This document shows, one piece after another, positions 2,443 through 37,930 of a DNA stretch of 64,000 bases. The DNA comes from a virus. The DNA is taken from positions 1 to 64,000 of the IMG/VR virus record IMGVR_UViG_3300044682_000021. One strand, given 5' to 3'. The position numbers and the translations under genes are program-made. Under the pieces are notes generated by a model. That model was given only the letters and a program-made list of their open reading frames with translations. It did not search any database and was not told where the DNA came from. Within the stretch, counting starts at the first letter, position 1, and every line of letters begins with the position of its first letter.

Positions 2443-2898
2443 CTATTGTACGAGTAGTGTTACCAGCGCTGCGTCGTTCGCGTTGTCGGCGTCAATATAG
2501 TACCGATACGGCCCCCAGCACGCCCGGTTCCGTGCGCTCGACGCCAGGAACAGCGTCTGCCCTGGCGGTAACACTGCAACCATCGAGCCGAAGTCGGTGT
2601 GGTTGCCCGCACCCTGTACGCCCTTGCGCATGATATACACGTTGCCGGTGTTGTTGACCACGCCCGTCCCGGCGTTCGACTTGAATCCCTGAAACATGAT
2701 CTGCTGCGCCAGCTCCGTGTATTCGTTGTTCTGCGCGGCCCCGGCAGGCTCGGTCGCGGTCGCCGTCTCCGGCGCATTGTAAGAGTTGGGATCGACAAGG
2801 GACATGATCCCGACAGGCGTGCCGGGTGTCGCTACGGTTATCAAGCCAAGGGGCCAATCTGGCCCCTGCTTGTCCTTCTGAATCGACTGTGTGGCCAT
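2443..2898 (-). CDS. structural protein, probable head fibre or decoration type
   Basis: 151 codons preceded by GGAGGAG at 8 bases. The chain is short, beta-rich and lacks catalytic motifs: NNTGNVYIMRKGVQGAGNHT and a C-terminal segment with WGPYRYYIDADNAND. This composition, with a compact small beta domain, is typical of phage decoration or tail accessory proteins. The role is inferred from composition and from neighbouring virion genes. Confidence 0.6.
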   Translation of the reverse strand: MATQSIQKDKQGPDWPLGLITVATPGTPVGIMSLVDPNSYNAPETATATEPAGAAQNNEYTELAQQIMFQGFKSNAGTGVVNNTGNVYIMRKGVQGAGNHTDFGSMVAVLPPGQTLFLASSARNRACWGPYRYYIDADNANDAALVTLLVQ

Positions 2899-2923
2899 GT
2901 ACTATCTCCTCCCGCCCATCGTA

Positions 2924-3217
2924 TCACTCGAAGATGAATCCACCAACTTTGGCGGAATATTTTAGCGCCTGTCCGTCCGTGGGCTGCGTTGCGGTCACGG
3001 GTATACCCATGATCTTGGTCGTCGATGGCCCCTGCGCCACCTGCTGGGCCAGCTTCCCGTGCTTCTGTTCCATCGCCTCCAGCCGCGCCTGCAAGTCCGC
3101 GTTGGTGCGACCCTGTTCATGGATGTGGTCGAACACCATCTTCCATTCGTCCTTGAGGTCGCCTGTCTTGAACGGGGACGGGTAGAAGGGATTCTGCTGT
3201 GGCGTCGTGGGTGGCAT
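2924..3217 (-). CDS. small protein with central coiled coil, virion-associated
   Basis: 97 codons beginning MPPTTPQQNPFYPSPFKTGD. The ATG overlaps the glycosyltransferase stop as TGATG, which fixes the start. Residues 20-60 (DEWKMVFDHIHEQ to AMEQKHGKLAQQV) form a heptad-like helix. The C-terminal 35 residues look like a small beta tail (VTATQPTDGQALKYSAKVGG), a pattern seen in attachment domains of phage fibres and receptor-binding subunits. Function unknown. Confidence 0.6.
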   Translation of the reverse strand: MPPTTPQQNPFYPSPFKTGDLKDEWKMVFDHIHEQGRTNADLQARLEAMEQKHGKLAQQVAQGPSTTKIMGIPVTATQPTDGQALKYSAKVGGFIFE

Positions 3218-3975
3218 CACTCCCCTCCCTGAAACGGATACGTGTCCGGCCCTAGCCGATACTCCGTGCCATCCGGTCCCCAGTGCGCCGGGAGCACGCC
3301 GCCATGCGCCAGCATCGTCATTCCAGCCTCGCGCACCTTGCGGCAGAAGTACAGGTCGTCCGTCATGCTCCCGTCGGGCGGGTCGTGGAACCACGGCTCC
3401 GGCACGTGGTCGAACGCTGCCGTGCGGATCATCATGCAGCCAGTGGCGATCCCGCCGGGGCACTCGAACACCTCGTCCATGCGCCAGCGCCAATACGGCC
3501 CAGCGCCCTCGGCAAGGAACACTAGCGGCGAGGGGGGATCGTACTTGTTCGTGTATATCCCCGCGCATAACGCCACCTCCGGCCCCGTGGACTCCAGCAC
3601 GTACATCAGCTTCAGCACCGTGTCTGGCGGCGGCGGATTGTCGTCGTCGAGGAACAGCACGTACCGCGCTCCGAGCGTCCGCGCCTGCCGCACAAGGTCG
3701 TTCCGTGCTTCGTCGCGTTTTAGGCCCTTGGTCGCGGTCAGCATCCATTGCATGTTGGGCGGAAATTGCAGCAGGGCTAAGGCCAGCGCGAACTCCGGCG
3801 GCACATAGCGGCCCTCGAACGGAATGGCGATGACCAGCACTGGAGGTGTCGTGGCCGTTCGCTTTCCCTCCATCGTCCATCCCGGCGCGGGCGGCGGCAG
3901 CACGACGCGGCGCGGCTCCGGGCTCCCCGTCCCGCGCAGCATCACCTCGCTCAAGTCCATCGACGCCAGTGGCAT
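3217..3975 (-). CDS. GT-A fold glycosyltransferase (GT2-like)
   Basis: 252 codons. After a short N-terminal tail, VLVIAIPFEGRYVPP begins the nucleotide-sugar fold. ARNDLVRQARTLGARYVLF leads to the DDD metal-binding motif (FLDDDNPPP) typical of GT2 enzymes. The later GIATGCMMIRTAAFD and GSMTDDLYFCRKVREAG segments match the acceptor-side and D/E-D-x-x-F-C pattern of the family. The start at 3975 has GGGAGG 5 bases upstream and overlaps the previous stop (TGATG). It would transfer a sugar from an activated donor. Among virion genes it may modify a capsid, tail or host surface glycan; this is inference. Confidence 0.8.
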   Translation of the reverse strand: MPLASMDLSEVMLRGTGSPEPRRVVLPPPAPGWTMEGKRTATTPPVLVIAIPFEGRYVPPEFALALALLQFPPNMQWMLTATKGLKRDEARNDLVRQARTLGARYVLFLDDDNPPPPDTVLKLMYVLESTGPEVALCAGIYTNKYDPPSPLVFLAEGAGPYWRWRMDEVFECPGGIATGCMMIRTAAFDHVPEPWFHDPPDGSMTDDLYFCRKVREAGMTMLAHGGVLPAHWGPDGTEYRLGPDTYPFQGGE

Positions 3976-4172
3976 CACATCCTCCCGATCCACGCCGTCT
4001 CGAAGTCTGTCAGGGGCGGCAACTCAATCCCTTGCTGGGACGCACGACAAGCCATCCCTGCCACCCACTCGATAAACTTGGCTTGGCGCTCCCAGCGGTT
4101 CAGATGCGGGCTTGGTCCCCCGCCGACGACCCCAGGTTGCGGTATCGCAGATAATTGTCCTGTCGTGCCCAT
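3975..4172 (-). CDS. small hypothetical protein
   Basis: 65 codons. The C-terminal part (WERQAKFIEWVAGMACRASQ, ELPPLTDFETAWIGRM) is helical, and the gene ends in TGATG coupling to the glycosyltransferase. The 5' 73 bases overlap the 3' end of the giant tail gene, so the true start may lie further inside. No family recognised. Confidence 0.5.
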   Translation of the reverse strand: MGTTGQLSAIPQPGVVGGGPSPHLNRWERQAKFIEWVAGMACRASQQGIELPPLTDFETAWIGRM

Positions 4173-7100
4173 GCGCCGACCTCCACTTCCCAGTTCTCAA
4201 GGTACAACTGAAACGGTGCTGTGCTGGTAGCGACGTAGAAGAATAATTGCCCCTTGTTGGCGGTCAGTATCACTGCCAGCTTCTGCATCGCGCCACCCGT
4301 CGCCGGGAGCGTGATCGCCGCCGGCGACTGGCCATCGTAACTCGTAATGGTGAGCGTCACAGGCTGCGTAGCCGCGTAGCACGGCGAAACCTGCTTGAGG
4401 TGCATGTAGCCTTGCAGCCCGTGCGCCGTTCCCTGCGTCTGCCATGTCTCCGCCATCTCCGGCGTCGCTTCGTACACCCACTCGACGCCGAAGAACCGCC
4501 ACGCCACCTGATCCGTCGGCTCCAGCCGCATCGTATGCGCCACGAAGGGAGCGTTGAACGAGTACGCGATGACGCACTCGCCGTTGTGCTGCACTACTGG
4601 CGTGAACGCGTGCAGCGCCAATGCGTCGCCGTCGCGCACCTGCAATCCCTTCACGGCGTCGAACGTGTCCGCGTGCAGCAGGAATCCCTGCACCCACTTC
4701 GCCGCCTCGGTCCCTGCGTCGTACCAGTCCGTGTAGCGGTCGGCGATGGTTTCCGGCTTGGGGACGTAGGACGGCTCCCACGCTTGGATGACCGTGGGCG
4801 CGGATTGCGTGGCGAAGTTATCTGTCCATGCCAGTTGCAGGCCGAGGAAGTCGGACAGGATCTCGCCGCCCAGCGATACGGGCGTCTGGACGACGCCAGC
4901 GGACGTGGGGATGGTCGTAGGTGGTGCCACCTGCGCCCCGAACGCCATCGGCGTCGCCATCACGCCAGTCGCCGTCACAGGTTGCAGGTAGGCCCAGAGG
5001 TCGCCCCACTGCTCTCCGGCGCGCAGGTCGCCGCCGTCCCATTCCAGTGTGGCGATTACGGCGGATATCGTCCCAATGGGCGGCGTGAGCACGATAGCCA
5101 CGCCCGCCACATGGGTCTTGGTGAAATTGGCGACGATCCCCGGCGATAAAGGCCCGCCGTCGTTAATGCCCTGGATGACTACGCTTTCACTGTTGACGCC
5201 CGCGTCTATCTCCACCGTATCGCCGATCTCGAATCCTACGAAGCTTATTACTTTAACATTCTGTAATCCCGTAACCGTGATCGCAGCAGTGGTGGTGGTG
5301 CTAGCACCCAGCCCCGTGATGTCATTGGTGAAATCCTGTGCCACGAGGATCGGCCCGAGGCTCGACCCTGCGACCAGTTGCGGGTACGCACGCGTCTCGC
5401 TCAGCAGCGTCCCAGCCTGCTGCTCCAGGGCGTAGTACGTCGTGACTGTCATGGTGGCGAACGTGTCCGGCGTCCACGCATGACGGCGGATGTCGTAGGT
5501 CAGAGTACAGAATGCGCCAGTGGAGTTGCGGTACAGCGCCCGCAGGTAGCCCTCACACACGACCAGCCGGAACGACGCCGCGTAGGCGTAGTTGGGAGCG
5601 TATATCGTCTGACCGTTGTAAGTATAGTCCACCCCCGCCACACCATCGTGCGGGAACAGGTTATAGAGGTCCGCGTCCGTCAGCGACCCCCCGCCAGACG
5701 AGTAGATGCCATCCTCCGCCCACCAGTAGAGTGTCTTGCCGTCGTTGCAGTGGCCCCACGGCGCGGCGAGGCCTCGGGTGAGCGGCTGTTGGACGACGGA
5801 GTAACGTTGCGTGGGATTCGACAGTTGCGGGTACAAGGCCCACCACCGCTTCGGCGACGCTACGTAGCTGAGTCCGTCAATGGTCTCCCCGCCCAGCAGC
5901 GGCTCCGTTGGCGGCGTGATCTCTATGGGATAGGAGTCGGGCGCGGCATCCGGCGCGTAATTCTTCGACGGATACAGCACACCGGGACGCACCGGATCAC
6001 CGACCGCGAAGACCGTCCCCGCCGCGTCTGGTCCCCACATATACGGCAGAAGTTGCCGCGCCATTTCGGGCTCGTAGATGGTGACAGGGATGCCCGCGAG
6101 CAGCGCTCCGGCGTTCTCTACGAGGGATAAGAGATAGGTGTTGCCGCTGATCAGCGTAGGCCGCGTCCGCAGCGTGTAAACGTTAATCCCTCCGATCTGG
6201 ATCAGGTTGCCGGGGAGATAGCGCAAGAGGTTGCCCGGCGTCACGGCCTGGACCAGCAACGCAGTGCCGACGACCTGGTCGGTGGTCTGGAGGAACGGTA
6301 CATCAATCGAAGGCCACGGTTCGAGGTTGTCGAACTCCAGTTCCTCGCCCTCGGATACGGCTTCGTCGGAATAGTTGTCTACGAATGGAGACACGGACGA
6401 CGATGCCTGCTGGCCGACCTTGCGCCACGATGTAAGCGAGCCACCATAGCGGAACACGTCCCACGTGTCAATCTGAGCATCGTAAGCGGCGGATGGTGGG
6501 ACCACGCTCACCGGGTTGCGCCGGGGGTTGACGCCATAGCGCGTCTCCGGCGACGGATTCCCCTTCGCACCCGTGACGCTGGACCGTGGCCGCACGCGAT
6601 ACAGGTACGGCGCGCCACTGTCGCCTACGTCCGGCTGGAACCGCCCGAACACACTGCACTCGCCGACCGAGGCGTTCGTGGCAGCGCTTACATTGAACAG
6701 GAACTGGACCGCGTTGAGGTTCTGGAGCGACTTCGTCTGATCGTTGCCTACCCGCGTGAGAGCGGAAATGGGGAACACGATCTCCACCCATTGGCCGTCG
6801 CCGGGAGTGGTCTGGGCGCTGGAGGCGGTGGCAAGCTGGTTGTGCGACGCCGCCGCCTGCTCCTCGTCGATGGTCGCGCGCTGCGTGACCAGTTGCGCCG
6901 CGCCGAGTTGTGTCAGCGTGTTCTGCACCGCCGCCTCGATGTCCGAGACGCGCACCGTGTAGAAGTAGAAGTTCTGGGTGAAGGACCCGTCGCCTACGTC
7001 CAACAGGAACTTGAGTTCGTTCAGCGACGCGAGTGTGGTAATGGCGAACGAGATATGGATATAGTCCTCGGGCTGGTACGAGCCTCCGGCGTTGACGAAC

Positions 7101-36099: not shown

Positions 36100-36797
36100 T
36101 CGTCCGCCTCCTCATAGTCGCCATCGACGGTTACTAGGTCGCGGTCCCGCGCGGGCATGAACGTCGGCACACTCTCACTCGCAGGTGGCAACGCCTGCTG
36201 TTGCCCCGCGACCAGTTGGGCGTTCCGCTGCCGCGCCTCGACGATCCGGCGGATGGTGTCCTCCGGCGCGGGGGCGGCGATGGCAGCGGCCTTGGCGTCG
36301 GCGGTTGCGGTGGCGGTGGCGTTGGTGACGATCGAGATTTGCGCGCCCTTGGCGGCGGGCAGGAAGGCCATGTGCTTGAGGTGGGCCATGCGGTCCTCGA
36401 CGCCTAAGGGATTAGCCGCGCACTCCGATGACACGTCCACGATCTCTTCGTGACGCTGGGCCGCCTTCACGACGCCCAACTGTTGCGCCTGCACGCGGAT
36501 GGCTTCCGCAATCACGCCGAACAGGCGCGTGGGGGAGATGCCAGCGGCGACCGCGAACGCTTCCAGCGGCAGCACGCGGCGCACGTAGGAGGGGTAGAGG
36601 AGGTTGTCGTAGCGGGCGATGAACTTGCGTGCTTCGGGAGCGTCAGAGGCACGCAGGGCCTCCAGTGCCGCAGGGAGGCCGCCGCGAATCTTGGCGATCA
36701 GGTGCGTGATGCGCGGGGCCTCGGCGACCGTGTTAGGCGGGACGCCCAGCATGTCGTAGGCGAGGGCGCGCTGGCGGGCGATGGGCAGAGGGCTCAC
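36096..36797 (-). CDS. candidate terminase small subunit
   Basis: 233 codons with a GTG start at 36797 that overlaps the methylase stop (GTGA), which fixes the start. The N-terminal half is helical with a possible HTH (LEAFAVAAGISPTRLFGVIA), a middle Ala/Thr-rich region (TNATATATADAKAAAIAA) and an acidic C-terminus (TVDGDYEEADE). Domain order and position just upstream of the large subunit fit a small terminase subunit, but no diagnostic motif exists, so this is inference. Confidence 0.5.
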   Translation of the reverse strand: MSPLPIARQRALAYDMLGVPPNTVAEAPRITHLIAKIRGGLPAALEALRASDAPEARKFIARYDNLLYPSYVRRVLPLEAFAVAAGISPTRLFGVIAEAIRVQAQQLGVVKAAQRHEEIVDVSSECAANPLGVEDRMAHLKHMAFLPAAKGAQISIVTNATATATADAKAAAIAAPAPEDTIRRIVEARQRNAQLVAGQQQALPPASESVPTFMPARDRDLVTVDGDYEEADE

Positions 36798-37396
36798 GGG
36801 AGTTGCCTCGCTATGTATTCGGAGTAGGCTGGCGGGATGGCTTCTCGCGTCTCGTGGCGATTCATCCACCCTACACCCATCTCACGCCCCCACAACTTCT
36901 CAGGGTCTTGTCGTCCAAACTCAGCATATATGCGAAGGCGACTTTCGTGGTTATGGGGATTAAGAATAGGCTTGGTAACATTGCATCGCGGTCTGGCGGC
37001 GGTCAGCCTAGGAGACTCAAATAGGCGATGGCGATGGATACGCAAGCCAAACATGGTTCCACAAAGCACGAGTGGCTCACGAAGCGGTGCCCCAACTACG
37101 TTCTCGATTACCCAAGCTGCGGTCGAGGCCATAAGTCTATCGCGCATAGCGTCAATAAGCATAGGTTGTGGTATGGCTAGATGCCTCATAGCAGCTGAAT
37201 AAGATTGGCACGGCGGACTCGCCCACACGAAGTCGAATCCATCCAGCGGATAGGTCATCGCGTCGCCAAGGACGAACGTGAACGGATACCTCGGCTGCGG
37301 CTTGATATCCACGCCGATGATTTCCGCGTCAGGCCACGCACGATGCAACCCCATCGCCGCACCGCCGGCCCCTGAAAAAAGATCCAATATTCTCAT
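36794..37396 (-). CDS. C5-cytosine DNA methyltransferase, compact
   Basis: 200 codons, MRILDLFSGAGGAAMGLHRA. Motif I is DLFSGAGG, motif IV carries the catalytic Cys63 in ASPPCQSYS, motif VI is IENV (98-100) and motif VIII RHRLFE. It transfers methyl from S-adenosylmethionine to cytosine. At 200 residues it is shorter than usual (300-400), so its target-recognition region must be small. The ATG is coupled to the HNH gene (ATGA). A second, differently coded start of motif I lies upstream of the HNH gene (37889-37930). Confidence 0.8.
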   Translation of the reverse strand: MRILDLFSGAGGAAMGLHRAWPDAEIIGVDIKPQPRYPFTFVLGDAMTYPLDGFDFVWASPPCQSYSAAMRHLAIPQPMLIDAMRDRLMASTAAWVIENVVGAPLREPLVLCGTMFGLRIHRHRLFESPRLTAARPRCNVTKPILNPHNHESRLRIYAEFGRQDPEKLWGREMGVGWMNRHETREAIPPAYSEYIARQLP

Positions 37397-37860
37397 GCCC
37401 TTGCCTGTGTTAATGTCGTACCCTCTATTTGTCCGGTCAGAGTCAGTTCGTAATGGTGATTCGCGCATAGCAGCCTGAACTCCTTTAGGTGTTTAAGCAC
37501 ATACCCCGGATGTCGGGGATGGCGGAATGGCCGATTGCGCGTCGTCGGAACATAATCCACATGCAGCCAGTTTCGATTCGATGTCCGACACGAAGGGACA
37601 ACACAACCTCCACCAAGAGCCTCTATGATTCGCCGACGCTCCTCTCGGTGTTTCTCTCTCCAAGCACCGGGGTTCTTGGCTAGGCGATTTCCGTTGTAAG
37701 CCTTCATCGCGTCCGGGTGCTGCTGCATCCATAGTTTCGTCTTCTTTTGGCCGGCTTTCTTGGCGCACTTCTGTGAGCAATACTGACGATTGTTGTCGCC
37801 CTGAGTAAAAACGCCAAATGACTTGCTGCATGGCTGGTAACGGCAGGTGCGCGTTTTCAT
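37393..37860 (-). CDS. HNH endonuclease with zinc fingers
   Basis: 155 codons from ATG at 37860. The N-terminal zinc-finger (CRYQPCSKSFGVFTQG, then YCSQKCAKKAG) is followed by a basic helix of the NUMOD/AP2-like type (NRLAKNPGAWREKHREERRR) and an HNH core (CVVPSCRTSNRNWLHVDYVP, LLCANHHYELT). It separates a 14-codon methylase start remnant from the complete methylase, as expected of a homing endonuclease insertion. The 3' end is coupled to the methylase by ATGA. Confidence 0.8.
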   Translation of the reverse strand: MKTRTCRYQPCSKSFGVFTQGDNNRQYCSQKCAKKAGQKKTKLWMQQHPDAMKAYNGNRLAKNPGAWREKHREERRRIIEALGGGCVVPSCRTSNRNWLHVDYVPTTRNRPFRHPRHPGYVLKHLKEFRLLCANHHYELTLTGQIEGTTLTQARA

Positions 37861-37888
37861 GGGTCCATGATACCACAAAATAAGTCAA

Positions 37889-37930
37889 ACCCGCGCCGCA
37901 GAATAGGTCTAACACTCGTCGAGGAGTCAC
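37889..37930 (-). pseudogene. remnant 5' end of a cytosine methylase gene
   Basis: GTG at 37930 is coupled (GTGA) to the upstream gene and encodes MTPRRVLDLFCGAG, which is methylase motif I. The frame then leaves the family. After the HNH gene the motif returns as MRILDLFSGAGG with different codons. This is best read as the original start of the methylase gene, cut off by the HNH insertion. Confidence 0.7.

Follow-up and report, generated by a model that had tools for sequence, protein, structure and literature searches.

Our analysis showed that, in a 64,000-nucleotide stretch of viral DNA (hereafter the window; positions 1 to 64,000 of the 64,095-base IMG/VR virus record IMGVR_UViG_3300044682_000021), the start of a C5 cytosine methylase gene is broken by a gene for an HNH endonuclease, and that the methylase gene starts again directly after the HNH gene, in other codons, and is then complete. 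The explanation that best accounts for this arrangement, and in which we have considerable confidence, is a homing endonuclease gene without an intron, in which the HNH gene moves as one unit together with a short, recoded duplicate of the beginning of the gene it targets. It appears that the element mends the methylase gene that it breaks, and it probably shields this gene as well. This reading builds on the anatomy of the locus, its recurrence in other viruses, the sharp boundary of the recoded copy in Streptomyces phages and the separate histories of that copy and of the methylase gene body.

All parts of the element lie on the minus strand (Table 1; coordinates are window positions). A first-pass annotation of this DNA, made from its letters alone, had proposed that the upstream gene is coupled to a frame encoding motif I of a C5 methylase, that this frame breaks into the HNH gene and that a coupled, complete methylase follows, and each of these parts was found in place. 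The remnant frame, read from 37930 as GTG ACT CCT CGA CGA GTG TTA GAC CTA TTC TGC GGC GCG GG, gives MTPRRVLDLFCGAG, and its resemblance to methylases ends at about 37890. The open reading frame (ORF) after the HNH gene (beginning MRILDLFSGAGGAAMGL...) matches C5 methylases in Pfam (DNA_methylase, E 1.4e-5) and PHROG (363, DNA methyltransferase, E 4e-29). The two starts were also said to use different codons: the restart reads MRILDLFSGAGG, none of the five L-D-L-F-C/S codons is common to it and the remnant, and 6 of these 15 nucleotides (nt) differ. As the same annotation anticipated, the upstream 14 codons match methylases, and HNH-free relatives begin like the upstream remnant and have a single start (MNPPRRVLDLYCCAGG in L003, MNPRALDLFCGAGG in L001).

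Table 1. Parts of the element and the gene upstream of it, in window coordinates.
Feature	Position	Strand	Remarks
Upstream gene, 74 amino acids	37927..38151	(-)	Stop and native methylase start overlap (GTGA)
Native methylase start remnant (stub), MTPRRVLDLFCGAG, motif I; ends after GGCGCGGG	37890..37930	(-)	HNH-free relatives begin similarly; equivalent stubs in 9 further HNH loci
29-nt gap from remnant to HNH start	37861..37889	(-)	Holds an extended -10-like site, TGGTATCAT, at 37875-37867
HNH endonuclease gene, 155 amino acids	37393..37860	(-)	Cys-rich N-terminus; C-terminal HNH core WLHVDY ... LLCANHHYELTLTG
Recoded replacement start (patch), MRILDLFSGAGGAAMG	37349..37396	(-)	From codon comparison; length by analogy with the 48 nt of Forrest versus Jada
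Complete C5 cytosine methylase, 200 amino acids	36794..37396	(-)	ATGA-coupled to the HNH stop; 70-71% identity to the HNH-free methylases L001-L004

The end of the replaced segment becomes visible in Streptomyces phages, among which the HNH gene is present in Forrest and Blueeyedbeauty and absent from the same site in Jada, MeganTheeKilla, Annadreamy and Beuffert, the pattern of presence and absence among close relatives that is typical of homing genes. The methylase genes of Forrest and Jada differ at 11 positions within nt 1-48 (nt 1, 7, 10, 12, 18, 30, 33, 36, 39, 42 and 48) and at none within nt 49-648, and their similarity stays at 99% across 1838 nt rightward; the changes turn the GTG start codon into ATG and replace one Ile by Val. 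Between Blueeyedbeauty and Beuffert, nt 1-44 contain 12 mismatches, compared with 8 across nt 45-210. The step in both pairs indicates that a replacement patch, some 48 bp long, forms the end of the mobile segment, which supports the earlier proposal that a recoded patch repairs the interrupted gene. The first 48 nt of the methylase have a history separate from that of its body: the distances in nt 1-48 and nt 49-330 are 2.1% and 14.5% between Blueeyedbeauty and Faust, 22.9% and 0% between Forrest and Jada, and 0% and 14.5% between Jada and Francob. In Faust (L077, 767-1204) the HNH slot is occupied by a LAGLIDADG ORF (Pfam E 3.8e-7), ATGA-coupled to the methylase, and the patch differs from that of Blueeyedbeauty at one position across the first 62 nt; either the patch may have been exchanged between elements, or one nuclease may have replaced the other. 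The methylases of Karp (L076) and TunaTartare (L078) are free of a nuclease, and their nt 1-48 are recoded in yet a third manner; these starts are perhaps resistant alleles or the scars of lost elements.

We counted 13 independent HNH loci (the window, L048, L049, L050, L051, L053, L054, L055, L057, L059, L060, L070 and L072), in 12 of which the methylase lies directly downstream of the HNH gene (some 50 nt downstream in L072). The upstream side could be read in 12, L057 being cut by the contig end, and 10 of these have both a truncated motif-I stub before the HNH gene and a second, recoded start after it, a recurrence that argues against chance as the origin of the double start. In these 10 of 12 loci, a relic of the native gene end and a diverged functional copy thus lie on opposite sides of the nuclease gene, as in elements of the Allomyces atp6 type. 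The stub of L072, ITLTDMFCGC, comes from a distantly related methylase, and the common target is therefore the motif and not a single gene lineage. The HNH stop and the methylase start overlap (ATGA or GTGA) in the window, L051, L053, L057, L059 and L060. In L049, L054 and L055 the HNH stop has a TTG or an ATG no more than about 13 nt away. The repaired methylase is thus plausibly coupled to the HNH gene in translation. In L048 (4207-4453) and L070 (3231-3456) the methylase frame overlaps the end of the HNH ORF, with a TTG as the sole start candidate near the patch in L070, and translation of these two methylases may need reinitiation or a frameshift. To place the patch edge in L053, L054, L055 and L048 as well, HNH-free methylases close to theirs were sought, and none nearer than about 62% was obtained. 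In L054, L055 and L070 the sequence GCGCTA(A/C) follows the stub just before the HNH start in all three, and may mark the left boundary of the element.

Patches also differ from native starts in the motif-I Cys and in codons. Of 143 distinct motif-I sequences of HNH-free methylases in the retrieved loci, 130 have the Cys of F-C-G-A, against only 3 of 11 patches (Fisher p = 4e-6, relatedness ignored), and 9 of 10 remnants have it. A remnant and its patch have on average 1.0 of five codons in common, compared with 1.75 for random HNH-free pairs (P = 0.02). Low codon sharing and loss of the Cys are what would be expected if selection disfavoured either renewed cleavage or recombination of the stub with the patch.

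The HNH protein has relatives of 48-60% identity in viral contigs, two Streptomyces phages and one Spirosoma metagenome-assembled genome; a scan of genome contigs gave a single bacterial case, L072, and a plasmid search none. Invariant cysteines and the signature LHVDY...LLCANHHYELTLTG characterise the family, and an alignment showed LH and CANHH to be invariant across 11-12 members, which thus carry the His/Asn/His of HNH nucleases. An extra N-terminal CxxC module is found in most members and is absent from those of the window, L049, Forrest and Blueeyedbeauty. The AlphaFold model (predicted local distance difference test, pLDDT, 88) contains a strand-strand-helix unit at 99-142 (strands 99-103 and 128-132, helix 133-142), and together with the conserved residues it assigns the protein, as modelled, to the HNH (beta-beta-alpha metal) fold type. 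Foldseek returned weak matches (E at least 0.1), mostly to HNH domains. Pfam and PDB sequence searches gave the family no name: the window protein has no Pfam match, and the matches of other members to family models are weak, such as those to zf-FCS_1 and Endonuclease_7. The HNH ORF of the window could also open at an upstream TTG, and the family alignment favours the ATG at 37860. The extended -10-like site in front of it has p = 0.010 in the window and is not significant in several relatives; that such sites are significant in part of the loci is suggestive of a shared promoter before the HNH gene. The gene upstream of the remnant has no match in Pfam or PHROG searches, and terminase and portal genes lie near the element.

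These observations suggest the following course of events. The HNH protein would recognise the DNA that specifies motif I (LDLFCGAGG) in the C5 methylases of phages, and would cut or nick it. An HNH-free phage would mend the break with an HNH-bearing one as template and thereby acquire both the HNH gene and the patch, with recombination resolved in the homology immediately past the patch and the first codons of the target left behind as a dead stub. The patch would restore a whole methylase, and in many members its translation would follow from coupling to the HNH stop. Because its codons, and usually its motif-I Cys, differ from those of the native start, the patch is expected to escape re-cleavage, and because it is recoded, recombination between stub and patch that would expel the HNH gene should be avoided. 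Two further observations count in favour of homing: the HNH gene is patchily distributed, and in Faust its slot is taken by an unrelated nuclease of the LAGLIDADG type. If this is correct, a phage closely related to that of the window but free of the HNH gene should have a methylase that starts with MTPRRVLDLFCGAGG and resembles the window methylase from about nt 50. We also lean, by a narrow measure, towards a broader interpretation, in which the element is a home-and-rescue drive that arose in nature. A family of phage nucleases would have as its target the coding DNA of a catalytic motif that is near-universal in C5 methylases, and would bring along a recoded, cut-resistant start; the slot and the patch would be common to it and the unrelated LAGLIDADG nuclease of Faust, and the nuclease-free recoded starts of Karp and TunaTartare would persist as resistant alleles.

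Several points weigh against a homing gene that travels with a patch. No stub was seen in L051, nor is there one in L050 (4001-4900), where the HNH gene directly precedes an SSB gene and no methylase is present (nor does the SSB frame offer a clear ATG past the HNH gene). L048 lacks a usual methylase start codon near the patch, the nearest ATG lying 201 nt upstream, within the HNH gene. The left flank of Forrest is not Jada-like, the ThyX region being 74-78% identical to that of Jada and 91% to that of Francob, which indicates that a longer donor tract entered on that side and that the exchange exceeded the element; on the ThyX side, Blueeyedbeauty is 87-89% identical to HNH-free relatives. 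The Cys statistic ignores relatedness, and three patches retain the Cys. Foldseek and the family searches give the HNH protein no confident placement. Finally, the end of the patch cannot be seen in the window, as the closest HNH-free relative of its methylase is only 71% identical.

This last point bears on the alternative that a cassette of the HNH gene and a complete foreign methylase displaced all but the first codons of an older methylase, with no patch involved. It would fit the absence of a close HNH-free relative to mark the end of foreign DNA in the window, a divergence between stub and patch like that of unrelated methylases, and the similarly low GC content at third codon positions (GC3) of the window HNH and methylase genes (0.56-0.57, against 0.85-0.88 in neighbouring genes). 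The stub has an equally low GC3 (0.50, 7 of 14 codons), so that the native methylase was itself foreign in composition, and the methylase of the window looks like a foreign accessory gene. With the foreign part of the methylase stopping at about nt 48 in Forrest/Jada and Blueeyedbeauty/Beuffert, we regard replacement of the whole gene as unlikely.

Neither of two further explanations fares as well. HNH restriction enzymes exist, and the adjacency of the HNH gene to a C5 methylase in 12 of 13 loci would suit a restriction-modification pair in which the methylase protects the sites of the HNH enzyme and the stub is a by-product of acquisition. Most related methylases, however, have no HNH gene, the HNH gene sits at identical codons of divergent methylases (including the distant one of L072), each with its own stub, and the recoded patch and the crossover at its end would be left unexplained, which makes such a pair very improbable. 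HNH ORFs are frequent in phage introns, and introns prefer conserved motifs, so that a self-splicing intron might join the first start to the methylase body. Yet an Rfam search of the window region and ten related loci gave no intron match (its matches were a transfer RNA and a sub-threshold chance hit), and there is no room for an intron core, since only 9-65 nt separate the stub from the HNH start and the HNH stop overlaps the methylase start in the window and several relatives. The downstream methylase is, moreover, already complete, and we give the intron the least credence of all.

Homing elements must avoid destroying the gene they enter, and introns and inteins do so by splicing themselves out. 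The free-standing phage homing elements known to us lie between genes or split them. The phage HNH family would represent another way, in which a recoded patch repairs the entered gene at its 5' end. It would account for the mosaic starts of phage methylases, and would offer a tractable natural model for the recoded-rescue logic of synthetic gene drives, with cultured Streptomyces phages as close natural before/after pairs. Synthetic home-and-rescue drives (e.g. PMC7968924) likewise target a conserved functional site and bring a recoded, cut-resistant rescue, but they are engineered CRISPR systems in insects, whereas the phage element is only presumed to drive.

Other phage HNH elements share part of this arrangement. 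MobE in Aeh1 nrdA and MobA in T4 gene 60 are free-standing HNH homing endonuclease genes in functionally critical parts of phage genes (PMC2988022); they leave the gene in separate pieces, whereas the methylase element rebuilds it from a second, recoded start. In the mycobacteriophage ShiLan, an HNH gene is inserted without intron or intein at a conserved site of a DNA methylase gene, and 11 residues at the start of the element resemble those past the insertion (PMC11855218), a diverged duplicate of the target for which the authors gave no description as a replacement patch (PMC11855218). It differs in the type of methylase (DPPY, gp65), in its HNH protein and in being inserted mid-gene with the reading frame open; its HNH ORF lacks the LLCANHHYELTLTG signature, and the profile of the phage HNH family gave no match to the ShiLan locus at E up to 1. 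In ShiLan (L123, methylase 2786-5668) the left copy, SYEPVCVAVKP, is the diverged one, and the right copy, AFEPIVVARKP, is the native sequence, present once in the uninvaded Martik (L221). We therefore rejected ShiLan as a case of the same arrangement, which it mirrors, the recoded copy lying to the left and the native one to the right; judging by these copies, a related trick with a mirrored patch may be at work, and this would possibly explain a duplicate that its authors left unexplained.

In the open-access literature (subscription papers being outside the scope of the search), we found no account of an endonuclease in phages by which the 5' end of the target is replaced. The nearest counterparts are mobile ORFs of fungal mitochondria that bring a replacement C-terminus, in atp6 of Allomyces macrogynus and in atp6, atp9, cox2 and nad3 of Glomus (PMC3630166). 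As in the phage element, an endonuclease ORF interrupts a conserved gene and brings a diverged copy of the lost part, so that a hybrid is rebuilt and the native piece remains as a relic. The parallel with atp6 that the first-pass annotation had drawn is thus apt, but it is mirrored: the fungal elements, mostly LAGLIDADG or GIY-YIG, replace the 3' end and with it the C-terminus (PMC3630166), while the phage element, with an HNH nuclease (LAGLIDADG in Faust), replaces the 5' end and targets a single motif in many methylase lineages. Because it is the N-terminal end that is replaced, we do not file the phage element as a member of the Allomyces atp6 type, although it works alike. It is real, recurrent and well explained as a variant of endonuclease elements with a replacement gene end, known from the C-terminal counterparts of fungal mitochondria and new in its phage setting and in the replacement of the 5' end.
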